From a virus, in the IMG/VR virus record IMGVR_UViG_3300008116_007717, positions 1 to 25,407 of that record: a DNA stretch of 25,407 nt; one strand, 5' to 3'. Positions within the stretch are counted from its first letter, which is position 1, and each line of letters opens with the position of its first letter. The position numbers and the translations under genes are program-made. Of this stretch, positions 3,958 through 23,141 are shown piece by piece. The notes under the pieces were generated by a model. It did not search any database and was not told where the DNA came from. It saw only the letters and a list, made by a program, of their open reading frames with translations.

Positions 3958-4485
3958 ATGTTTGTTGAACACAAAAAAGAAACAATATTGGCTGAAGTAG
4001 GCAAATTACAACGTCTTAATTACAACCAGTTTTTCTGGTGGAGAAAGTTCCGCCCCAAACAAAAACAATTACATAAATATTCTTATACAGTTGCCAAAAT
4101 CAAAAATGGCGATTTTGACTTTTCTCATTACTACTGGCAAGCACAATATGCGTTGCTTGAAATGAATGAGAAAACAGGACATATCCAACATCCATCAGCA
4201 CGTCATGAGGCACAAGCTTTATTTCGTGAGCGTTATAGACGTTTAATGAGGGATTTTGAAAAAGATGAAACTGAACGTTTAGAGGCATTTTACACTGACT
4301 GCCGTAAAACTCTCAAACTATCAAAACGACAAGTAGAAGAAATGGCGCTCAATTTTGATGGTACACTAGAGGAGTTTTATATTGACTTGCAATCAAAATA
4401 TCAAAATAAACCTCAACCAGTACCTGATTTTAATAATTTTGGTAAACGTAAAAGAGGTAGACCTAAAAAAATAATAAATGAGTAA
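3958..4485 (+). CDS. Hypothetical protein with C-terminal AT-hook
   Basis: 175 residues with no family recognised. The protein is rich in aromatic and charged residues and is probably mostly helical. Its last 15 residues contain Lys-Arg-Lys-Arg-Gly-Arg-Pro-Lys-Lys, an AT-hook core (Arg-Gly-Arg-Pro at 166-169) that binds the minor groove of AT-rich DNA. This suits an AT-rich genome and suggests a DNA-associated role. It is preceded by a promoter-like pair at 3913-3944 and overlaps the QueD start by 8 bases, so it may be the first gene of the deazaguanine operon. The ATG at 3958 is taken as start because the frame does not extend usefully upstream. Confidence 0.7.
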   Translation: MFVEHKKETILAEVGKLQRLNYNQFFWWRKFRPKQKQLHKYSYTVAKIKNGDFDFSHYYWQAQYALLEMNEKTGHIQHPSARHEAQALFRERYRRLMRDFEKDETERLEAFYTDCRKTLKLSKRQVEEMALNFDGTLEEFYIDLQSKYQNKPQPVPDFNNFGKRKRGRPKKIINE

Positions 4486-4942
4486 ATTTCAATCAACAAA
4501 ATTATTTGATGGATACAGTTGTGTATTCCGTCAATGGAAAGCAGAAGGAACACACTGTAGATTCCTTCATGGTTATGGTGTTTCATTTAGAGTATGGTTC
4601 GAAGGTGAACTTGATGAACGTAATTGGGTTTGGGATTTTGGAGGAATGAAACGCTCTAAAGGTACTATTGATGGTATGAATCCTAAAGCATGGATGGATT
4701 ATATGTTTGACCATACAACTGTTATAGCTGAAGATGATCCATATCGTGCCTATTTTTATAATATGGAAAGAGAGGGCATCATTCAATTGAGAGTACTTCC
4801 TGCTGTTGGAGCTGAACAATTCGCAAAATTCATTTACGGAAAATTAAATACATTTGTTCAGGAAGAAACTGATGGTAGAGTTAAAGTTGTAAAAGTAGAA
4901 TTTATGGAAAACAATAAAAACTCAGCTACATATGGAGAATGA
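4478..4942 (+). CDS. queD: 6-carboxy-tetrahydropterin synthase, QueD-like (phage variant)
   Basis: Second step of the preQ0 pathway: converts 7,8-dihydroneopterin triphosphate (the FolE product) to 6-carboxy-tetrahydropterin. Family blocks, in order: Cys-Arg-Phe-Leu-His-Gly near residues 27-32; a Gly-Glu-Leu-Asp turn; a Trp-Asp-Phe-Gly-Gly-Met-Lys segment; the Phe-Asp-His-Thr block; Pro-Ala-Val-Gly-Ala-Glu-Gln-Phe with the conserved Glu; and a C-terminal Ser-Ala-x-Tyr-Gly-Glu. In the usual enzyme zinc is held by one early His and by both His of a His-Gly-His motif. Here the motif reads His-Gly-Tyr and the early His position appears to be Val or Phe, so the metal site differs. Together with FolE, QueE, QueC and DpdA in the same run of genes the assignment is good. 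The start overlaps the AT-hook gene by 8 bases. Confidence 0.8.
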   Translation: MSKFQSTKLFDGYSCVFRQWKAEGTHCRFLHGYGVSFRVWFEGELDERNWVWDFGGMKRSKGTIDGMNPKAWMDYMFDHTTVIAEDDPYRAYFYNMEREGIIQLRVLPAVGAEQFAKFIYGKLNTFVQEETDGRVKVVKVEFMENNKNSATYGE

Positions 4943-5123
4943 CCCAATGTTAGAAAATAATAGCTATTATGATATAGATATCATTAATAAAGCTAACAAA
5001 CCTATTTTTAAGAAAATACAGGAATGGGAGAAAAAATATGCTAATGCCTCTAGTAATATGGGTAAATGGTATTGCCAGATTCAAATTGATAGATGGAAGA
5101 AAAAACTACATCATTATAAATAA
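4932..5123 (+). CDS. Small hypothetical protein
   Basis: 63 residues, rich in Lys, Asn and Tyr; not recognised. It overlaps the QueD stop by 11 bases and ends one base before the DpdA ATG, so it is translated within the deazaguanine operon. An in-frame ATG at 4947 would remove the overlap and shorten the protein by 5 residues. The C-terminal half looks like an amphipathic, basic helix (WEKKYA...WKKKLHHYK). It could be a small nucleic-acid-associated or accessory protein, but nothing more can be said. Confidence 0.55.
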   Translation: MENDPMLENNSYYDIDIINKANKPIFKKIQEWEKKYANASSNMGKWYCQIQIDRWKKKLHHYK

Positions 5124-5124
5124 T

Positions 5125-5913
5125 ATGAAAGTATCACACGAACTACCTTTAGGGTTAATGCACAAAGCATATGAGTGGAATGATTATGATTATTGTCTCC
5201 CTCATTTGATTGACAAGTATCAACAGTATAGACTATTTTTCCAAAAATCACGTTTAGATAAACGTTTTATCATTATGGATAATGGGTTATTTGAGGGAGT
5301 AACTCATACAAAAGAAGATTTATTTGATAAAATTAATTTAATCCGTCCTAGTGTTTTTGTAGTTCCAGATGAATGGAATGATGCTAATAGAACTTTAGTA
5401 AATGCTAAAAGTTGGATGATTAATTATAAACCTAATCTACCCGATGGAGTTGAATTAATGGCTGTTTGTCAAGGACAAGATATAGATGAATTAACTAGAG
5501 TTTATACTACGCTAATTGATTTAGGATACAAATATATAGCAATTAACCATTCTAGTATTGCTTATGAAAAATCATATCCAGGTGAAATGCCTAAGTTAAA
5601 AAAACAAATGTATGGCAGAATGGAATTTCTTAGAAGATTAGTTGAAAAAGATATTGTTAGAAAAGGTATTCATCATCATTTGCTCGGTTGTTCATTGCCT
5701 CAAGAGTTTATGGCTTATACTGGGTGGTCATGGGTCAAAACAGTAGATACATCTAATCCAATATTAGTTGGAGCAGAGGGACATCGTTACACAGACAGTG
5801 GTATTCATTTCAAACCAGAAAATAAATTAGAACATTACATAGAAATGAATTTGGAGGATCGAATGGAAGATATTACCTTTAATGTAAACAAATTTAAAAG
5901 TTATGTCAAGTAA
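5125..5913 (+). CDS. dpdA: DpdA-like DNA 7-deazaguanine transglycosylase (TGT-related)
   Basis: Probably swaps guanine in DNA for preQ0 or a related 7-deazaguanine, using the base-exchange chemistry of tRNA-guanine transglycosylases. Visible TGT-like blocks: Met-Asp-Asn-Gly (51-54, matching the DSGG block with its base-binding Asp), Val-Pro-Asp-Glu-Trp (80-84), Val-Cys-Gln-Gly-Gln (114-118, matching the substrate-binding Gln loop), Leu-Leu-Gly-Cys-Ser-Leu-Pro (186-192), and Thr-Val-Asp-Thr-Ser-Asn-Pro (206-212), whose Asp208 is the likely nucleophile. At 262 residues it is much shorter than tRNA enzymes and lacks their C-terminal zinc site, as expected for short phage DpdA proteins. The frame opens further upstream, but the ATG at 5125 fits the fold and the previous stop. 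Its neighbours are queD and queC. A DNA substrate is inferred from family and context. Confidence 0.82.
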   Translation: MKVSHELPLGLMHKAYEWNDYDYCLPHLIDKYQQYRLFFQKSRLDKRFIIMDNGLFEGVTHTKEDLFDKINLIRPSVFVVPDEWNDANRTLVNAKSWMINYKPNLPDGVELMAVCQGQDIDELTRVYTTLIDLGYKYIAINHSSIAYEKSYPGEMPKLKKQMYGRMEFLRRLVEKDIVRKGIHHHLLGCSLPQEFMAYTGWSWVKTVDTSNPILVGAEGHRYTDSGIHFKPENKLEHYIEMNLEDRMEDITFNVNKFKSYVK

Positions 5914-6172
5914 AATGGTATCATTGTATGATTATTTAGGTCGCCCTGCAGGTAAAGCATTAGGATGGGCTGTTGGTAGACAAGCATCCTTAGCTGGAGT
6001 TGATGTTCAAAAACGTCATGTAGAAAATAAAGCTTATACAGGATGGGTAAATTTGTATAGTGAAGAAGTATTAAAAATATTCTTTAAAAATCCATCTAAT
6101 AAAGCTATTATTGATGCTGATGAAAAAGCATACCGTGAAAGACAAATAAGGAGGAGATTATGGGGAAAATAA
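5903..6172 (+). CDS. Hypothetical protein downstream of dpdA
   Basis: 89 residues, overlapping the dpdA stop by 11 bases. An N-terminal Ser-Leu-Tyr-Asp-Tyr-Leu-Gly-Arg motif leads into a Gly/Ala-rich helix (AGKALGWAVG), then a basic C-terminus ending Arg-Gln-Ile-Arg-Arg-Arg-Leu-Trp-Gly-Lys. No function is known to me for this arrangement. There is no signal peptide or membrane segment. Its position inside the operon suggests a link to DNA modification or nucleotide metabolism. A second ATG at 5915 is possible. Confidence 0.6.
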   Translation: MSSKMVSLYDYLGRPAGKALGWAVGRQASLAGVDVQKRHVENKAYTGWVNLYSEEVLKIFFKNPSNKAIIDADEKAYRERQIRRRLWGK

Positions 6173-6354
6173 AAGAAGCATTATTTGAAGTAATTAATAG
6201 TAGAAATGACGATGGTATTGATCTAGACTATCAATACGAACAATATCTACTAGAACAAAATAAAATTAAGCGTAATAATTTACGCAAGTCGCTTGAACAA
6301 GACGTAAGCGATAAACAAGTAAATACTGTCTTAAATAATATTAAGTTGAAATGA
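6160..6354 (+). CDS. Small hypothetical protein with strong Shine-Dalgarno
   Basis: 64 residues, charged and probably helical, not recognised. AGGAGG at 6149-6154 stands 5 bases before the ATG. It is one of only three perfect or near-perfect Shine-Dalgarno sites in the window, which makes this start secure. The gene overlaps its upstream neighbour by 13 bases and the queC start by 4 (ATGA), so translation is probably coupled to queC. Confidence 0.6.
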   Translation: MGKIKEALFEVINSRNDDGIDLDYQYEQYLLEQNKIKRNNLRKSLEQDVSDKQVNTVLNNIKLK

Positions 6355-7280
6355 AACAAGCAGTTTTATCATTGTCAGGTGGAATGGACTCAAGTTCATT
6401 ATTGTTACACCTGTTAGCTAATGGCTACGAAGTAACAGCATTAAGTTTTGATTATGGACAAAAGCATCGTGTTGAATTAGAGCGTGCTCAATCATTAGTT
6501 GAGTATATCAATTGGAATCCAACAAGAGTATTTCATCATGATCATGCACCAGAAGGATTTGAGCAAGCATACCCATTAGTAAAACATCAAGTAATTAAAC
6601 TAGATGGATTACAACAATTACTAAACTCAGCTTTAGTAACAGGTGGGGCTGATGTTCCTGAAGGACATTATGAACAAGACAACATGAAAGAAACAGTTGT
6701 ACCTAACCGTAATAAAATATTTAGCTCAATTATCCAAGCAGTAGCATTATCACTTGCAACTAAACCAATTACTGATGATTGCTCTATAGGACAAAATGTA
6801 GCTATTGCTATGGGTATTCACGCTGGTGATCATGCTATTTATCCTGATTGCAGACAAGAATTTAGGGATGTTGATTTTGAAGCATTCAAAACAGGTAATT
6901 GGGATAGTCATTTAGTTTATATTCATACTCCCTATCTTGAAATGAATAAGTATGATATTTTAGTAGATGGAGAATCATGCTGTGAAAAATTAGGATTAGA
7001 CTTTGACGAAATATATAAGCGCACAAACACATCTTATAAGCCAATTTGGATTCCTAAAGCTCAAACACTAGATGGAGATATAGTTTTATATGAATCAAAA
7101 GAAGGTTATTGGTTTAGTGACTATAAATCAGCAGCATCAGTAGAACGTATTGAAGCGTTTATTAAACTAGGTCGTCCTGATCCTGTAGATTATGCTGATG
7201 AAACAGGACCTGTAAGTTGGGAAGTAGCTAAAGCACACGTAGAAAAGGTATTATATGAACATAAAAAAACAAATATATGA
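6351..7280 (+). CDS. queC: 7-cyano-7-deazaguanine (preQ0) synthase, QueC-like, without the zinc cysteines
   Basis: ATP-dependent conversion of 7-carboxy-7-deazaguanine to preQ0. The PP-loop Ser-Gly-Gly-Met-Asp-Ser-Ser is at residues 9-15. A Phe-Asp-Tyr-Gly-Gln block is at 33-37, Val-Val-Pro-Asn-Arg-Asn at 116-121, and Gly-Ile-His-Ala-Gly-Asp-His with Tyr-Pro-Asp-Cys-Arg at about 155-168. At 309 residues it is longer than cellular QueC (about 230). The C-terminal region that normally carries four zinc cysteines (TWSCY ... CGxCxxC-VER) is recognisable, but by eye the four positions read Ser228, Asp257, Ser260 and Ser263. The Val-Glu-Arg-Ile-Glu-Ala-Phe that follows is intact. A further 40-residue tail follows. 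The start overlaps the upstream gene by ATGA and the stop overlaps the next start by ATGA. Confidence 0.87.
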   Translation: MKQAVLSLSGGMDSSSLLLHLLANGYEVTALSFDYGQKHRVELERAQSLVEYINWNPTRVFHHDHAPEGFEQAYPLVKHQVIKLDGLQQLLNSALVTGGADVPEGHYEQDNMKETVVPNRNKIFSSIIQAVALSLATKPITDDCSIGQNVAIAMGIHAGDHAIYPDCRQEFRDVDFEAFKTGNWDSHLVYIHTPYLEMNKYDILVDGESCCEKLGLDFDEIYKRTNTSYKPIWIPKAQTLDGDIVLYESKEGYWFSDYKSAASVERIEAFIKLGRPDPVDYADETGPVSWEVAKAHVEKVLYEHKKTNI

Positions 7281-7534
7281 TTTACATATTTAAATTTATT
7301 TTGGTAATGTTGGCTATGATAGTAGCTGATGTATGTTGGACTTTCTATTTTATTAAAGTAGAAGAACGCAAAGTAATAGCATCAGGTATTTGGTCATCAC
7401 TTATTATTATAGCAAGTGCCTTTATTACAACAAGTTATGTAGAAGATAGATCATTAGTACCTGCTGCTGTTTTAGGAGCATTTATTGGTACTGCTGGTAC
7501 TGTATATTATAAAAAGAAAAAAGAAAATAAATGA
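7277..7534 (+). CDS. Small membrane protein between queC and queE
   Basis: 85 residues with three predicted membrane segments (about residues 3-26, 35-54 and 60-77) and a Lys-rich cytoplasmic tail (Lys-Lys-Lys-Lys-Glu-Asn-Lys). It overlaps queC by ATGA upstream and queE by ATGA downstream, so the three are translated as one unit. It is far too small to be the known queuosine-precursor transporter YhhQ, which has about six segments. The function is unknown; a role in import or membrane anchoring of the pathway is only a guess from position. Confidence 0.65.
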   Translation: MIYIFKFILVMLAMIVADVCWTFYFIKVEERKVIASGIWSSLIIIASAFITTSYVEDRSLVPAAVLGAFIGTAGTVYYKKKKENK

Positions 7535-8361
7535 GTAAAATAGACCCACACAAACTACTTATTAGTAGTGATTTCTATTCAGTACAAGGTGAAGGTATTT
7601 CATCTGGGGTTCCATCGTATTTCGTTAGATTAGGTATCTGTAATCTAACTTGCGGTATGAGCCGTAAATTCGCTAACCAATTAGAGAAGGAAAAATCATT
7701 AGAAGACGGAGAAATATTCGTTGGTGATTTACACGCTGAAGGTAAAGCAACGTGGACTTGTGATTCTACAAGCCAATGGTTGTGGAGAGGTGTAGATCAA
7801 GAGTTTCAATATCTAATTGATAGATGGAAAGAACAAGGTATATATGATGATGTTAAAGAAGGTAATATTCATATTATTTGGACTGGTGGTGAACCAACAA
7901 TTAAAGGTCATCAAGCAGCTATTTGTAACTTCTTAGCTTATTGGTATGAGCAAGATATGTCAATCACACCATATAATGAAATTGAAACAAATGGTACTGT
8001 TTATATTGAGGATGAATTGTTTAGACAATTAGACCAAATTAATTGCTCCCCTAAATTAGCTAATTCAGGTATGTCTAAAAAGCAACGTTTTGTTGAACCT
8101 GCTCTTAGACGTATTATGGAACATGATAATTATCAATTTAAGTTTGTTATTAGTGTTGAAGATGATATCAAGGAAATATTTGATGAGTTTGTAACACCAC
8201 TTGAAGCACCACTTAAAAATATAGTTTGTATGCCTGGTTTAGATGATCAAGATGATTTCCACGAGCGTACTAATTTCGTTTTGGAAATGGCTAAAATCTA
8301 TAAATTTAGAGGTCTTACTCGTTTGCACATCTCAGCTTGGAATAAAACATTAAACGTATAA
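7531..8361 (+). CDS. queE: 7-carboxy-7-deazaguanine synthase, QueE-like radical SAM enzyme
   Basis: Radical SAM ring contraction of 6-carboxy-tetrahydropterin to 7-carboxy-7-deazaguanine. The QueE N-terminal block Ser-Val-Gln-Gly-Glu-Gly (17-22) is present, as are Thr-Gly-Gly-Glu-Pro (SAM binding) and Glu-Thr-Asn-Gly-Thr. The cluster-binding cysteines are Cys37 and Cys41, but the third of the usual Cys-x3-Cys-x2-Cys is not at 44. Cys77, in Thr-Trp-Thr-Cys-Asp-Ser-Thr, looks like the displaced third ligand, implying an insertion of about 33 residues in the cluster loop. QueE proteins with altered cysteine spacing are known, so function is plausible. The start overlaps the membrane gene by ATGA. 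Confidence 0.88.
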   Translation: MSKIDPHKLLISSDFYSVQGEGISSGVPSYFVRLGICNLTCGMSRKFANQLEKEKSLEDGEIFVGDLHAEGKATWTCDSTSQWLWRGVDQEFQYLIDRWKEQGIYDDVKEGNIHIIWTGGEPTIKGHQAAICNFLAYWYEQDMSITPYNEIETNGTVYIEDELFRQLDQINCSPKLANSGMSKKQRFVEPALRRIMEHDNYQFKFVISVEDDIKEIFDEFVTPLEAPLKNIVCMPGLDDQDDFHERTNFVLEMAKIYKFRGLTRLHISAWNKTLNV

Positions 8362-8362
8362 T

Positions 8363-8650
8363 ATGCCTAAATACAAAATAATGGGTGAACGTACCCTAGT
8401 AGAAGCTTGGAGTTACATCGTTGAAGCAGATGATGTCGATCAAGCAATTGAAATGGTTGAAGAATGTCCTGATGGATTATGTGAAGGAATTGAACGTCAA
8501 GATGACGATCAGTGTTATGAGGATAGTACTGAGTTTTCATTTCTGGAAGAGATTGAAGAGCCAAAGCCAAAGAAAAAGGCTAATCCAAAACAGATGAATG
8601 GAAAGAAAAGTGATGAACCATTTAAGAAAACCAGGAAAAAGAAAAAATGA
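8363..8650 (+). CDS. Hypothetical protein with basic C-terminal tail
   Basis: 95 residues. The first 50 form a compact acidic domain (Tyr-Ile-Val-Glu-Ala-Asp-Asp-Val-Asp-Gln-Ala-Ile pattern) resembling small phage proteins that have a sheet-helix repeat. The last 35 residues are almost entirely Lys, Pro, Arg and Asn, probably disordered and nucleic-acid binding. It follows queE by one base and overlaps the Smr-like gene by ATGA. No family assigned. Confidence 0.55.
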   Translation: MPKYKIMGERTLVEAWSYIVEADDVDQAIEMVEECPDGLCEGIERQDDDQCYEDSTEFSFLEEIEEPKPKKKANPKQMNGKKSDEPFKKTRKKKK

Positions 8651-8889
8651 AAGAATTAGATTTGCATGGGGTATCTCATTATGATGTACGAGATATAGTT
8701 GAAAATTTTGTTTTGCTTAATGCTAGAAACTTACCTATACGAATCATAACTGGATATTCAAATCACATGCGTATTCTTACTGAAAATATTTTAATAAAAC
8801 ATAGTTTTGACTATCATGTCCCTTCTCATAACGCAGGTGAAATAATAGTAGTACATGATAAAGAATATACCTTATGCAATTCACAATAA
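8647..8889 (+). CDS. Smr-domain protein
   Basis: 80 residues that amount to one stand-alone Smr (small MutS-related) domain. The signature Leu-Asp-Leu-His-Gly is at residues 4-8, followed by a helix and the Ile-Ile-Thr-Gly-Tyr-Ser-Asn-His strand-loop that corresponds to the usual Ile-Thr-Gly-x-Gly-x-His-Ser block. The C-terminal Gly-Glu-Ile-Ile-Val strand ends the fold. Smr domains bind or nick nucleic acids, and in cells some cleave RNA at stalled ribosomes. Here the loop glycine is Tyr-Ser. The gene overlaps its upstream neighbour by ATGA and its downstream neighbour by 16 bases. Confidence 0.75.
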   Translation: MKELDLHGVSHYDVRDIVENFVLLNARNLPIRIITGYSNHMRILTENILIKHSFDYHVPSHNAGEIIVVHDKEYTLCNSQ

Positions 8890-9110
8890 CATTAGAGCAA
8901 TTATATTTTGGTGTTTTCATTTTTGTATCAATAATGCAAATATATTTGATACGTAAAATTGATAAAACTAAAATTGAAATAACTAACCAAAATAAAGAAA
9001 TTCAGAAAATTTGGGAACAGATTGGAATGATAGCTTCAACAATTGCTATAAAACATTTGGAGCTTGAAAAGGAAGTTAGTAAATTAAAAGAAAAAATAGA
9101 AAAAGAATAA
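8874..9110 (+). CDS. Small membrane-anchored coiled-coil protein
   Basis: 78 residues with one membrane segment near the N-terminus (about 10-27) followed by a Lys/Glu-rich coiled coil (about 28-78). The layout is like that of the 93-residue protein at 22233. It overlaps the Smr-like gene by 16 bases and ends one base before folE. Function unknown; small spanin-like or inhibitor proteins have this shape, but nothing here identifies one. Confidence 0.6.
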   Translation: MQFTITLEQLYFGVFIFVSIMQIYLIRKIDKTKIEITNQNKEIQKIWEQIGMIASTIAIKHLELEKEVSKLKEKIEKE

Positions 9111-9111
9111 T

Positions 9112-9747
9112 ATGGAATTATTAAAAAAATCAAACGGTAATTTACCTCGCACACAGAAAGAAATCGATAAGATGATTGACAAAGCAGCTGATGCGTATGG
9201 TAAATTCCTTAATGCTGTTGGGTTTGACTATACAGCAGACAGACAAACAGTAGATACTCCTCGTCGTGTAGCTAAAGCATGGCTTAAGGATTTGATTGTA
9301 GGTAGCATTACTGACGAACCAAATATCACTGTATTCCCTAATGATGATGGTTATAATGGATTAGTAATCCAATCAGGTATTCCTATTGTTAGTATGTGTG
9401 CGCATCATAATCTTGCATTTACAGGTTATGCTACAGTAGCTTATGTTCCAGGAGAGCAAGTAGTAGGTTTATCTAAATTAAATCGTATTGTAGAGTGGTT
9501 CAGCCGTAGACCACAAATGCAAGAATCACTTACTCAACAGATTCATGATTATTTAGCTACCAAAATGGATTGCCCATCAGTAGCAGTAAGTATTGCTTGT
9601 AAACATACTTGTTGCTCACACAGAGGTATTAAACACCCATCTGTAATGACTACAAATAAATTCAGTGGTGTGTTTATGGAGAAGGATAATTTAATTCGTG
9701 AAGAATTCTTACACGCAATTGAGGTTAACGGAACAAAAATGAAATAA
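9112..9747 (+). CDS. folE: GTP cyclohydrolase I
   Basis: Opens and rearranges GTP to 7,8-dihydroneopterin triphosphate, the first step toward preQ0 (and folate). The zinc site is intact: Cys96 in Cys-Ala-His-His with His99, and Cys167 in His-Thr-Cys-Cys. Other family blocks are Asp-Thr-Pro-Arg-Arg-Val-Ala (48-54), Gly-Leu-Ser-Lys-Leu-Asn-Arg (119-125) and Ser-His-Arg-Gly (169-172). Length (211) is normal. It lies at the 3' end of the deazaguanine genes and shares TAATG with the phosphoribosyltransferase start. In phages it most often serves DNA 7-deazaguanine synthesis, which the neighbours support here. Confidence 0.95.
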   Translation: MELLKKSNGNLPRTQKEIDKMIDKAADAYGKFLNAVGFDYTADRQTVDTPRRVAKAWLKDLIVGSITDEPNITVFPNDDGYNGLVIQSGIPIVSMCAHHNLAFTGYATVAYVPGEQVVGLSKLNRIVEWFSRRPQMQESLTQQIHDYLATKMDCPSVAVSIACKHTCCSHRGIKHPSVMTTNKFSGVFMEKDNLIREEFLHAIEVNGTKMK

Positions 9748-10172
9748 TGGATAAGCGCTATTTAAATTGGAATGACGTTGATAGAGCAATTAATAGGATA
9801 GTTGCTAGTATTAATAGTAGTGGAGTTAAATTTGAAGCTGTTGGTGGATTACCTCGTGGAGGACTAATTCCAGCTGTAATATTATCTCATAGATTAAATA
9901 TTCCATTCGTAGCCCAAGCTAATATAGCATCAATAGAGGGCGACGTTTTAGTTGTAGATGATATTTGTGATTCAGGTAAAACATTAAAACGATTTAAATC
10001 AGAAAAAAATATCTATACAGCTACTTTACATTGGAAACAATCAGCTGAATATCAACCCCATTACTTTTGGGAAATTGCTTATGAAAATGAATGGATAGTT
10101 TATCCGTGGGAAAATAAAGATTCACAAACAATACAAGATTATAAAACTAATATAATTAATAAATTATGTTAA
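9747..10172 (+). CDS. Type I phosphoribosyltransferase
   Basis: 141 residues with the PRPP-binding motif Val-Leu-Val-Val-Asp-Asp-Ile-Cys-Asp-Ser-Gly-Lys-Thr near residues 67-79, and a Gly-Leu-Pro-Arg-Gly-Gly loop at 38-43. This is the fold of purine phosphoribosyltransferases such as xanthine-guanine phosphoribosyltransferase, which attach a base to PRPP. The base hood is small, so the substrate cannot be read from sequence; salvage of guanine or of a deazaguanine is possible given the neighbours. The start is inside the folE stop (TAATG) and the stop overlaps the next ATG by 7 bases. Confidence 0.85.
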   Translation: MDKRYLNWNDVDRAINRIVASINSSGVKFEAVGGLPRGGLIPAVILSHRLNIPFVAQANIASIEGDVLVVDDICDSGKTLKRFKSEKNIYTATLHWKQSAEYQPHYFWEIAYENEWIVYPWENKDSQTIQDYKTNIINKLC

Positions 10173-18487: not shown

Positions 18488-19159
18488 ATGACTCGTTCTG
18501 ATTATTTTCATATACCTAATTTTTGCCCACCTGAAATCTGCGATTTTCTAGTTCGTGAGTATGATAGAGATAGTGATATGCTCAATCTTACAAGTGAATT
18601 TGATAACGCAGATTTCTCTTATTTTGATAAAACAAATCTCCATAAACAAGGACTTAGAGATAAAAGAGCTAAAGTATTTGTAGAGCAACTGGCTTATAAT
18701 ACAAGACAAAAGCATATTGACTTTTATAAACCCGAGCAAATATGGTCTGATACTCAGGTATTAGTAAAATGGTTTCCAGGTCGCGATCTAGGAGTACATG
18801 CTGATAATGCCTTTTGGCCTGATGGAAGACCAAATTATGTTCATTTTAGACAATTCTCTTCAATAGTTTATCTTAATAATGCCAGTGAATATGAAGGTGG
18901 AGAGTTCTTTTTTATTGATCCTTATTTAGAAATTAAACCACAAAAAGGAGACTTGATAGGATTTAAATCAGGAATGGAATGGGCTCATGGAGTAAAAATG
19001 ATTACTTCAGGAGCTCGTTATACTTTATCTCTTTGGTTTACAGACGATATTGAGTATGCTATATGGGATAATGATAATTATAGAAAAGACATTGATGAAA
19101 AAAGTGAACAATTACAAATAGATCCTTTGGATCGTTCTAACATTATAAAGTTATGGTAA
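18488..19159 (+). CDS. 2-oxoglutarate/Fe(II) oxygenase, prolyl 4-hydroxylase-like
   Basis: 223 residues with a double-stranded beta-helix. The iron ligands are His104 and Asp106 (Val-His-Ala-Asp-Asn) and His167 (Trp-Ala-His-Gly-Val), and the 2-oxoglutarate-binding Arg is Arg177. A Tyr-Glu-Gly-Gly-Glu-Phe-Phe-Phe strand and Lys-Pro-Gln-Lys-Gly-Asp-Leu lie between them, as in prolyl 4-hydroxylases. It would hydroxylate a protein side chain, a nucleobase or a sugar; the substrate cannot be read from sequence. The stop overlaps the carbamoyltransferase start by 7 bases, so the pair is translationally coupled, which suggests that the new hydroxyl is the acceptor for the next enzyme. Confidence 0.88.
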   Translation: MTRSDYFHIPNFCPPEICDFLVREYDRDSDMLNLTSEFDNADFSYFDKTNLHKQGLRDKRAKVFVEQLAYNTRQKHIDFYKPEQIWSDTQVLVKWFPGRDLGVHADNAFWPDGRPNYVHFRQFSSIVYLNNASEYEGGEFFFIDPYLEIKPQKGDLIGFKSGMEWAHGVKMITSGARYTLSLWFTDDIEYAIWDNDNYRKDIDEKSEQLQIDPLDRSNIIKLW

Positions 19160-20784
19160 TATATGGAATATTTCTTGGTGCTCACCAATATTCAACAGCA
19201 TTAATTAAAGATGGAAAAATATTATATGCTATTGAAAATGAAAGAATAACAAGAGTAAAGCATGGATATAGTTGGTTTGAATCACCTAAAGCATCTTATG
19301 TTGCTATTGAAAAAGCAACAGGTATAAAATTTGAAGATGTAGATTATATTGCTCTTTCAGATCCTGGACAACTAAGATATGATTTGGGCGCCTATAATAA
19401 TTCTCCTGATAAAGTAGCTAACTATTATTTTTGGAAACAAAAGATAAGAGATTTTAATAAACCTATTATTGCTTTTGAACATCATCAATGTCATGCCGCT
19501 GTGGGTTATTATTTAAGCGGATTTCAAGAGAAAACTTTAATTCTTACTATGGATGGTGGTAGTAATGAAAGAAACTACACTACAATTTGGTTAGGTGAAA
19601 AAGGTAACATGACTAAGGTACACCAAAATATAGAGCCGTTAGAGGGTTCATTAGGGTGTATTTGGTTTGAATTATGTAAACACTTTGATTACACACCTGT
19701 TAAAGATGAAGGAAAAATAATGGGCTTAGCACCTCAGGGCAAATTAAATTCAGACTTTTATAATATATTAGATGAAATATGTCGTTATCAAGGTAATTTA
19801 AGTTTTAGTACACCTCATAATTTTCCATTTGCTAATTGGGCTTTTGCTCAATGCGAGGGCAATGGATTTTTTGATACACCCGAGAAAAAAGCAGATATAG
19901 CGTTTACAACACAAAAACATTTTGAGGATAATATCATACCATACATTAAAGACCTTAAAGCTAGATACCCTGAATATACTAAATTAGTCATGTCAGGAGG
20001 TTTATTTGCTAATGTTAAGGCGAATCAAAAAATAAATGAGCAGTGTGGGTTTGAAGAGGTATTTATTGCCCCACCAATGGGTGATGAAGGTTTATCATTA
20101 GGTGCTGCTATGTTAGCTTCTTGGAAATTAGGTGAATGGGAACATAAACCAACTAAAGATGTATTTTTTGGTTTAGAATATACTGATGAACAAGTTATGG
20201 ATGCTGCTTTAAAATTTAATGTTAAAGCAAAAGGTAGATACACTAATGATATGGAATTTATCGTATCTGAATTAACAAACAGAAAGGTATTTGGTATATT
20301 CAATGGTCGATTTGAATTAGGACCTAGAGCATTAGGTAACAGAAGTGTTATAATGGAAGCAACAAATCGTTATAATCATTCTCATCTTAATCAGCGATTT
20401 GGAAGAGACGAAACAATGCCTTTTGCCCCTATAGTATTATATGATAAAGCAGAAGAAGTATTTGATATCAAATCATCTAAATTTGCTTCTGAATTTATGA
20501 CGTTATGTCATAATGTAAAAGAAGAATGGAAGGAAAAAATTCCAGCAGTTACTCATTTAGATGGTACTGCACGTCCTCAAATTGTAAGACTAGATGTACA
20601 TCCTGTATTTTACAATATATTACACTTTTATGACAAATGGACTAATATTCCTGTCTTAATTAATACTTCGTTTAACGGACATGGTGAACCTATTATTGAT
20701 ACACCTGAACAAGCATTTATCCATTTAGAAAAAGGTTCTATTGATTATTTAATTATAAACAACATGTTATATGCTAGAAACTAA
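19153..20784 (+). CDS. O-carbamoyltransferase, NodU/TobZ/CmcH family
   Basis: 543 residues covering both expected domains. The N-terminal Kae1-like domain has Ser-Thr-Ala-Leu, Glu-Asn-Glu-Arg (28-31), the metal-binding Glu-His-His-Gln-Cys-His (109-114), and Thr-Met-Asp-Gly-Gly-Ser (132-137). The C-terminal YrdC-like domain has Phe-Glu-Leu-Gly-Pro-Arg-Ala-Leu-Gly-Asn-Arg-Ser and Asn-Thr-Ser-Phe-Asn, near residues 390 and 498. Family members carbamoylate hydroxyls of Nod factors and antibiotics from carbamoyl phosphate and ATP. In phages such genes have been linked to nucleobase or surface modification. It overlaps the oxygenase by 7 bases and the next gene by 14, so the three act together. All conserved residues I looked for are present. 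Confidence 0.93.
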   Translation: MVIYGIFLGAHQYSTALIKDGKILYAIENERITRVKHGYSWFESPKASYVAIEKATGIKFEDVDYIALSDPGQLRYDLGAYNNSPDKVANYYFWKQKIRDFNKPIIAFEHHQCHAAVGYYLSGFQEKTLILTMDGGSNERNYTTIWLGEKGNMTKVHQNIEPLEGSLGCIWFELCKHFDYTPVKDEGKIMGLAPQGKLNSDFYNILDEICRYQGNLSFSTPHNFPFANWAFAQCEGNGFFDTPEKKADIAFTTQKHFEDNIIPYIKDLKARYPEYTKLVMSGGLFANVKANQKINEQCGFEEVFIAPPMGDEGLSLGAAMLASWKLGEWEHKPTKDVFFGLEYTDEQVMDAALKFNVKAKGRYTNDMEFIVSELTNRKVFGIFNGRFELGPRALGNRSVIMEATNRYNHSHLNQRFGRDETMPFAPIVLYDKAEEVFDIKSSKFASEFMTLCHNVKEEWKEKIPAVTHLDGTARPQIVRLDVHPVFYNILHFYDKWTNIPVLINTSFNGHGEPIIDTPEQAFIHLEKGSIDYLIINNMLYARN

Positions 20785-21532
20785 TTGGCCCCAAGTTAAT
20801 ATTAGATACCATGATTATTTTAGTGGTCCTTTTGTTGAAATAAAAACAACTGAAATAGAAAAATGGGGTGAATTTTTAATTCGTTTTTACGAAATAATAG
20901 GTGATAAAAAGGAATTAGTAGACCAAAAAGCTATTTGGGGAAACAACTGGTATGAAACTCCTAGAAAATTTTACACTAACTGGTATACTGAAGTATTAGG
21001 GTTTCAAAATAATAAAATAGTAAAAGTAGGATGGGATAGGTTTGATTTATATGGAAAAAAAGTAGCTATATGGCTTCAAAATGGATATAATAATATTTTA
21101 GATGTTAATTTCCATTTAGAAACACTCCCAGTAATAGAAGAATTTGCTAATAAACATAAGTGTTATGTAACAGTAGTTTCCGATTTTGCTCCATCATTAT
21201 CATCTTCAAATAAACATATCAGTTTTATGTCTATGTTAACTGCAGATGAAGCAAGATCATCTTATTATGCTACTTATAGAATAGGAATATACGCAGGGGA
21301 AGAAAATTATATACGATTACCTTGGGATGATTTAAAATCACAACCAGTATTAAATTCAAATAGATTACATTATGACCAGTTTCATCCTCGTAACGTAATT
21401 AAATTAAACCTATCTCCATCAGAAATTGCACGTGACATTTTATTTGGGTTTGATCATAACGATTTGAGTTACAATAACTATTACCAATCAACAAAATCTA
21501 TACTTTCTTCAAAGCAAGTTTGGTTACCCTAA
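20771..21532 (+). CDS. Unrecognised protein coupled to the carbamoyltransferase
   Basis: 253 residues, soluble, rich in Tyr, Trp and Asn; no family recognised. The central part has an alternating strand-helix pattern around Lys-Lys-Val-Ala-Ile-Trp-Leu-Gln-Asn-Gly and Cys-Tyr-Val-Thr-Val-Val-Ser-Asp-Phe-Ala, which could be a Rossmann-like or glycosyltransferase-like fold. That is weak. There is no signal peptide or membrane segment. The ATG lies 14 bases inside the carbamoyltransferase gene. It may supply a transferase, substrate-recognition or prior step for the hydroxylation-carbamoylation pathway. Confidence 0.75.
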   Translation: MLETNWPQVNIRYHDYFSGPFVEIKTTEIEKWGEFLIRFYEIIGDKKELVDQKAIWGNNWYETPRKFYTNWYTEVLGFQNNKIVKVGWDRFDLYGKKVAIWLQNGYNNILDVNFHLETLPVIEEFANKHKCYVTVVSDFAPSLSSSNKHISFMSMLTADEARSSYYATYRIGIYAGEENYIRLPWDDLKSQPVLNSNRLHYDQFHPRNVIKLNLSPSEIARDILFGFDHNDLSYNNYYQSTKSILSSKQVWLP

Positions 21533-22565: not shown

Positions 22566-23141
22566 ATGATTATAATAGATGGTTTTGTAAGAGATGAAGC
22601 ATTGCTTCGTAAAATTCAACAGTCAAACGAATTTTGGAACTCAGGTTATTATTGGTGGAATGGATGGTGGAATACTCCAGCCTCTACTTTACGCCATCAG
22701 TTGATTGAATATATTTGGCGCAATCATTGTCCTTTAGCTGAATCTATTTATTTAGATGGCTTTGAACATTGGGTAGGTGTTTATAATGCTAATGAAACTG
22801 TTTCTAATGTTGGTGGTGAGTTTTCACTTATTTCCCATTTTGATAAAGATGAAAAATTATGGAATGAAACAGGTAAAGTAGTTACTCCTAAATTAGGTAC
22901 TATTTTTTATCCTGATCCGTGTAATGATGAAATGGAAGGTGGTTATCTTAAAGTATGGAAAACTCATAATACTGATTTTAACGCTCCCTATGAACTTATT
23001 GAAGCGAAATACAATCGCTTAATTATATTTGACGCTAGTCAATTACATGCTGTTACTCCTGTTACTAAAGGAACAAGAAAAGCAATCGCTATTAATTTAT
23101 GGGATGAATCCCCAAGCGATGCTCCAAACATGCTATTCTAA
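22566..23141 (+). CDS. 2-oxoglutarate/Fe(II) oxygenase (second, divergent)
   Basis: 191 residues with the double-stranded beta-helix motif set: His91 and Asp93 (Ser-His-Phe-Asp), His161 (Leu-His-Ala-Val) and Arg171 (Gly-Thr-Arg-Lys), with a Gly-Gly-Tyr-Leu strand in between. The N-terminus is Trp/Tyr-rich (Tyr-Tyr-Trp-Trp-Asn-Gly-Trp-Trp). It shares only the motif pattern with the 18488 enzyme, not close sequence. It is followed by the clamp loader with its own promoter. The substrate is unknown; nucleic-acid, protein or small-molecule oxidation are all possible. Confidence 0.8.
   Translation: MIIIDGFVRDEALLRKIQQSNEFWNSGYYWWNGWWNTPASTLRHQLIEYIWRNHCPLAESIYLDGFEHWVGVYNANETVSNVGGEFSLISHFDKDEKLWNETGKVVTPKLGTIFYPDPCNDEMEGGYLKVWKTHNTDFNAPYELIEAKYNRLIIFDASQLHAVTPVTKGTRKAIAINLWDESPSDAPNMLF

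Follow-up and report, generated by a model that had tools for sequence, protein, structure and literature searches.

The 25,407-base virus record IMGVR_UViG_3300008116_007717 (GC content ~32%; hereafter the window) carries genes for the synthesis of the 7-deazaguanine base preQ0 (7-cyano-7-deazaguanine), a predicted DNA guanine transglycosylase, DpdA, and a purine phosphoribosyltransferase (PRTase). A first, sequence-only reading had called the phage T4-like, and the window indeed encodes PolB, clamp loader subunits resembling gp44 and gp62 (phrog_168 4e-80 and phrog_225 5e-17) and a DnaB-like helicase; ribonucleotide reductase (RNR) and GroES/GroEL are likewise encoded. The same reading had placed FolE, QueD, QueE, QueC and a gene related to tRNA-guanine transglycosylase (TGT) in a single run of mostly overlapping genes at 4478–9747, where all five are found. 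The order is QueD-DpdA-QueC-QueE-FolE-PRTase, all on the + strand, and the run reaches at least one gene past 9747, with the ATG of the PRTase gene (9747–10172) overlapping the folE stop codon. The cassette contains the following genes:

4478–4942, + strand: QueD-like 6-carboxytetrahydropterin synthase, phage type (PF01242 6.7e-14, phrog_2389 4.6e-38)
4932–5123, + strand: small conserved protein u4932, of a family found in 88 loci, mostly directly upstream of DpdA
5125–5913, + strand: predicted DpdA3-type DNA guanine transglycosylase, 262 amino acids (31–34% to CP220 gp056 and immuto DpdA; phrog_19058; AlphaFold2 model)
5903–6172, + strand: small conserved protein u5903, of the SLYDYLGxxAG family (81 loci)
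6160–6354, + strand: weakly conserved open reading frame (ORF) u6160 (6 loci only)
6351–7280, + strand: QueC variant (PF06508 5.3e-36; zinc cysteines replaced by S228/D257/S260/S263)
7277–7534, + strand: small hydrophobic protein u7277 (16 loci)
7531–8361, + strand: QueE-like radical S-adenosylmethionine synthase of 7-carboxy-7-deazaguanine (CDG) (phrog_2076 4e-38; no Pfam match)
8363–8650, + strand: weakly conserved ORF u8363 (13 loci)
8647–8889, + strand: small, weakly Smr-like ORF (PF01713 E 0.022, below cut-off; 16 loci)
8874–9110, + strand: small ORF u8874 (44 loci)
9112–9747, + strand: FolE, GTP cyclohydrolase I (PF01227 1.4e-47; C96, H98, H99, H165 and C167 kept)
9747–10172, + strand: PRTase resembling xanthine-guanine phosphoribosyltransferase (XGPRT) (PF00156 9.2e-11; motifs VVDDICDSGKT and WIVYPWE)

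The matches to PF01242, PF06508, PF01227, phrog_2389 and phrog_2076 bear out the expectation of a complete gene set from GTP to preQ0 (FolE, QueD, QueE, QueC). Short overlaps of a few bases join most adjacent cassette genes and suggest one translated unit. None of QueD, QueE, QueC and FolE reaches its NCBIfam equivalog cut-off. QueD keeps C27, H31 and H79, and its invariant R18 and Y33 stand at positions where canonical QueD has zinc-ligand histidines; QueD of the phages immuto and phiSM carries the same two residues. The cluster cysteines of QueE (C37, C41 and C77) are invariant in 96/96 sequences, and its cluster-binding loop has a long insert between C41 and C77, the loop being shorter in immuto and phiST.

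The DpdA gene has no match in Pfam, the Pfam TGT family included, or in NCBIfam; phrog_19058 is a family of unknown function, and a sequence-profile search of the PDB returned one chance match and no TGT. We therefore rely here on the AlphaFold2 model, built from 33 relatives (pLDDT 95.9, pTM 0.92). Searched against the PDB with Foldseek, it gave a best 50 matches listed that are all TGT or DpdA, led by TGT (E 1.3e-8, probability 1.0) and including the solved DpdA 7ui4 (E 4.6e-7), so that the structural comparison with known DpdA proposed in the sequence-only reading recovers the TGT/DpdA fold. No substitution occurs at D52, D82, Q116, G188 or D208 across 108 distinct relatives, and their counterparts in Z. 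mobilis TGT follow in the same order (catalytic D102 and D280; base pocket D156, Q203 and G230). In a weak hhalign alignment to E. coli Tgt (E 0.079), D82, Q116, G188 and D208 fall on matching motifs, and D52 was assigned as a catalytic aspartate by motif and order only. The absence of two catalytic aspartates from the model had been named as evidence against that reading; both are present. According to the model, the 5125 product is a protein with the TGT fold and its catalytic residues. Its nearest isolates are the CP220-group Campylobacter phages (33–34%; tblastn against CP220 DpdA 1e-28, coverage 99%) and Flavobacterium phage immuto (31%). For this group we use the subfamily name DpdA3, reportedly that of Cui et al. 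2023 (NAR). The DpdA3-type proteins of phiST (KC821604 gp042) and CP220 (NC_027997 gp056) are annotated merely as hypothetical.

QueC keeps SGGMDS, YGQKHRVE, VPNRN, YPDC and Y229 (the motifs SGGxDS, YxQxHxxE, VPxRN, YPDC and the zinc-region tyrosine of canonical QueC, PF06508 cluster 1), all of which are essential in E. coli QueC (PMC13329287). It fails the zinc motif C(x)8CxxCxxC, carrying S228, D257, S260 and S263 instead, and is thus filed as a QueC variant. All 105 clade members whose alignment covers these positions have the S-D-S-S signature, immuto and the sister-phage locus L096 among them; CAjan-like and phiSM QueC carry CCCC. Both L096 and immuto also encode QueF in the same phage (L096 QueF, TIGR03138 3e-48, below cut-off). 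As the substrate of QueF is preQ0, the S-D-S-S type of QueC probably still makes preQ0. That the loss of the zinc cysteines is constant across 105 environmental relatives puts in question the zinc requirement assumed for this enzyme.

The cassette is common, with at least 553 relatives of the window DpdA in an IMG/VR scan. The order QueD-DpdA-QueC-QueE-FolE(-PRTase) is the commonest of a few fixed orders, occurring in 55 fetched loci, several of which share one contig, so that locus counts are not counts of independent events. These loci also retain inner genes, u4932 and u5903 for example, and the recurrence of the order argues that the cassette is not a chance arrangement. One 9.3 kb contig (L004) is nearly identical (99.1%). 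Six of the small genes had been proposed to decide the final base or its target. Of these, only u4932 and u5903 belong to families that travel with the cassette (88 and 81 of ~158 loci). The others, u6160, u7277, u8363 and u8874, occur in 6, 16, 13 and 44 of ~158 loci; being absent from most relatives, they are poor candidates and we rejected them as choosers of the base. In 72 loci the 5903 family has DpdA on one side and QueC on the other; in immuto a member lies near QueC but far from DpdA. The AlphaFold2 model of the 5903 product is confident (pLDDT 92.4) and has no fold match in the PDB, and we therefore claim no function for this family.

The best new functional candidate lies directly outside the earlier coordinates. 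The PRTase passes the PF00156 cut-off, and its score against the NCBIfam XPRT model NF006613 (8.5e-13, 48.1 bits) is below the curated 138 bits; hence we call it only XGPRT-like, tentatively as regards base specificity. In the PDB its nearest chains belong to purine PRTases, XGPRT included. D71, D72, D75, G77 and T79 are invariant in 25 sequences of both PRTase subfamilies described below, and the sequence is that of a predicted PRTase fold with the phosphoribosyl pyrophosphate (PRPP) motif VVDDICDSGKT and the general-base aspartate.

We found a PRTase in 48 of 99 loci that carry DpdA and FolE, usually directly 3' or directly 5' of folE. Two subfamilies hold this same site, XGPRT-like or HGPRT-type (TIGR01203, up to 5e-41), and such an exchange of one purine PRTase for another speaks for selection acting on the activity. 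For scans centred on the PRTase, two unrelated isolates (Synechococcus phage BUCT-ZZ01 and Brevundimonas phage StAshley) supplied the XGPRT-like query genes; the scans returned 103 loci, mostly at 25–40% identity. FolE, QueD, QueE or QueC lies within 8 kb in 69 of them, corresponding to 23 of the 31 clusters formed at 50% identity, compared with 0/35 control loci, 34 of which were centred on ThyX of the cyanophage BUCT-ZZ01 (Fisher p 1.7e-13, kinship ignored; the queries were themselves linked to FolE/Que genes, so some ascertainment bias remains). A control scan with nicotinamide PRTase returned one locus. PRTase and FolE even share one open frame in three loci with other preQ0 genes adjacent (L273:7773-8753, L274:7827-8717 and L275:2950-3945), possibly from a single fusion event; the L273 product comprises PRTase (residues 9–134) and FolE (140–317), and the other two are alike. 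Among isolates, the PRTase is present in 3 of 4 DpdA3-type phages (phiST, immuto and StAshley) and in 0 of 12 QueC phages that have no DpdA3-type match. A 171 kb contig (G032, the IMG/VR contig of locus L266; 170,908 bases) has a DpdA3-type gene, QueE and PRTase, with FolE not detected. A PRTase scan of bacterial and archaeal genomes yielded one locus, in an archaeal metagenome-assembled genome, with no FolE/Que genes there. Searches of the open literature, with most subscription papers outside their reach, turned up no account of a PRTase linked to DpdA or 7-deazaguanine in phages.

QueF, formyltransferase and kinase genes were sought in the window and are absent, so the modified nucleoside of this phage is probably dPreQ0 or dADG (the deoxynucleoside of ADG, the amide of preQ0), unless a later enzyme is encoded outside the fragment. 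In L096 (10862-13693) and 18 further loci, QueF, a PurN-like formyltransferase and a small kinase lie directly after DpdA, in L096 before QueE. QueF and the PurN-like formyltransferase are likely the base-choosing genes of these sister phages, and this branch resembles a formyl-preQ1 branch of the kind reportedly described in 2023 by Cui and co-workers. As to extent, in CP220 DNA 100% of dG is reported as dADG (PMC8306585), and CAjan and Rosebush, which encode FolE-QueD-QueE-QueC without any later enzyme, contain ~28–32% dPreQ0 (PMC6884629). In phages of these two types the DpdA proteins are of other classes, with no match to our DpdA profile A4. Since the window DpdA groups with that of CP220 and not with those of the ~30% phages, extensive replacement is the likelier outcome by analogy, and the earlier expectation that guanines are "partly" 7-deazaguanine is probably too weak.

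Taken together, we lean modestly towards a DpdA3-type hypermodification cassette with near-full guanine exchange and a PRTase that recycles the released guanine. FolE, QueD, QueE and QueC would convert GTP to preQ0 or ADG. DpdA would then insert this base in place of guanine once the phage DNA is made, probably at most if not all guanines, leaving a product on which guanine-dependent restriction enzymes would fail. Each exchange should free one guanine. At full replacement this would amount to ~5.6 million guanines per burst, or ~9 mM in a 1 fL cell (by arithmetic, assuming a ~175 kb genome, a burst of 100 and 32% GC). We infer that the PRTase joins the freed guanine to PRPP to form GMP; removal of guanine would pull the reversible exchange forward, and the purine would be fed back towards GTP, the substrate of FolE. 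That the cassette serves DNA modification is in our judgement highly probable, and for guanine recycling as the role of the PRTase the chances appear about even. The PRTase could, on similarly balanced terms, be a 6-oxopurine enzyme, drawn from two subfamilies and in some loci fused to FolE, that forms an as yet unnoticed part of 7-deazaguanine DNA modification in phages; it would clear the guanine displaced by DpdA3 and recycle it into GTP, making complete replacement a closed cycle.

The PRTase might instead perform ordinary purine salvage, supplying GTP for FolE from any cellular guanine or xanthine irrespective of the DpdA by-product. It does abut and fuse with FolE rather than DpdA, and it accompanies FolE, QueD and QueE in phages without detectable DpdA. 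However, the 12 QueC phages with other DpdA classes need GTP equally and have no PRTase, G032 retains PRTase, DpdA and QueE with no FolE found, and DpdA is the sole step of the cassette expected to free guanine; these points favour a link to DpdA and leave salvage rather unlikely. It is more improbable still that the PRTase acts on a 7-deazaguanine base (CDG, preQ0 or ADG), giving a nucleotide and then a deoxynucleoside triphosphate for the phage polymerase and thus a partly pre-replicative replacement. BUCT-ZZ01 and its relatives, which have PRTase, pathway and RNR with no detectable DpdA, would fit such a route, as would the deoxynucleoside monophosphate kinase beside FolE-PRTase in StAshley. 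Yet DpdA is present in the window and in 98 other loci with FolE, its active site intact in every full-length sequence aligned, and catalysis by purine PRTases involves N7 of the base, an atom missing from 7-deazaguanines. A further reading concerns DpdA itself, which might exchange just part of the guanines, or those in a particular sequence context, for dPreQ0, as in CAjan (~32%). Phages with the same four preQ0 genes and no later enzyme do show partial replacement (PMC6884629), but their DpdA classes differ from that of the window, which falls in the CP220/phiST/immuto group, and we consider this possible though doubtful. The cassette could also boost queuosine precursors to modify host or phage tRNA rather than DNA, given that preQ0 is queuosine feedstock in many bacteria (PMC13329287) and that some phages have the pathway without DpdA (PMC6884629). 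A phage-encoded short transglycosylase that does not match the Pfam TGT family, and whose nearest characterised relative comes from a phage with fully modified DNA, makes this very improbable.

Several findings weigh against near-full exchange with guanine recycling. The QueC zinc site is lost, and the PRTase stays below the NCBIfam XPRT cut-off (48 vs 138 bits). The PRTase is missing from CP220, our reference phage for complete replacement, and none was detected nearby in 51 of the 99 DpdA+FolE loci; the PRTase is therefore not required. The complete cyanophage BUCT-ZZ01 carries QueE-PRTase-QueD-FolE with no DpdA by profile A4 or PF01702, and a search of BUCT-ZZ01 and other PRTase phages with profiles A2, A4 and PF01702 found DpdA in StAshley only. 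Finally, PRTase and the module of QueF, PurN-like formyltransferase and small kinase are nearly exclusive (module in 2/48 PRTase loci vs 19/51 loci without PRTase), which recycling does not predict; lineage may explain this exclusion.

Elsewhere in the window, an ORF at 1175-1846, between thioredoxin and RNR, may be homing-endonuclease-like. Two PKHD-type 2-oxoglutarate-Fe oxygenases, a NodU-like carbamoyltransferase and a heptosyltransferase-like gene occupy 18488-21532 and 22566-23141; the DpdA relatives lack them.

In a reversible exchange that releases one guanine per event, it is not obvious how every genomic guanine could be reached, and a dedicated guanine sink would explain it. The PRTase linkage also offers a genomic marker for DpdA3-type systems, predicting phages with heavily modified DNA.

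Compared with known systems, Campylobacter phage CP220 is alike in being a large T4-related phage with a short TGT-fold DpdA (33–34% over full length) and with QueD and QueC genes in the fetched regions, but its genes lie dispersed across the genome, its QueC retains the zinc cysteines and it has no PRTase. The nearest isolate, Flavobacterium phage vB_FspM_immuto_2-6A (immuto), shares QueC (60%), also of the S-D-S-S type and with the 5903-family member nearby, as well as QueD, FolE, DpdA and a PRTase (47%) adjoining FolE. It differs in having QueF, PurN-like formyltransferase and kinase genes, another QueE cysteine loop and a family A polymerase. Cellulophaga phage phiST has QueD, QueE, FolE, the DpdA3-type gp042 and a PRTase, the latter ~19 kb from FolE; unlike the window it has no QueC in the fetched cluster, so its product is perhaps of the CDG or 7-deazaguanine (DG) type. 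The CAjan/Rosebush-type preQ0 phages resemble the window in FolE-QueD-QueE-QueC, DpdA and the lack of a later enzyme, whereas they have another DpdA class, partial replacement, zinc-type QueC and no PRTase. DpdA3-type systems are already known, and what is new is an environmental clade variant with a zinc-cysteine-free QueC and an accessory PRTase.

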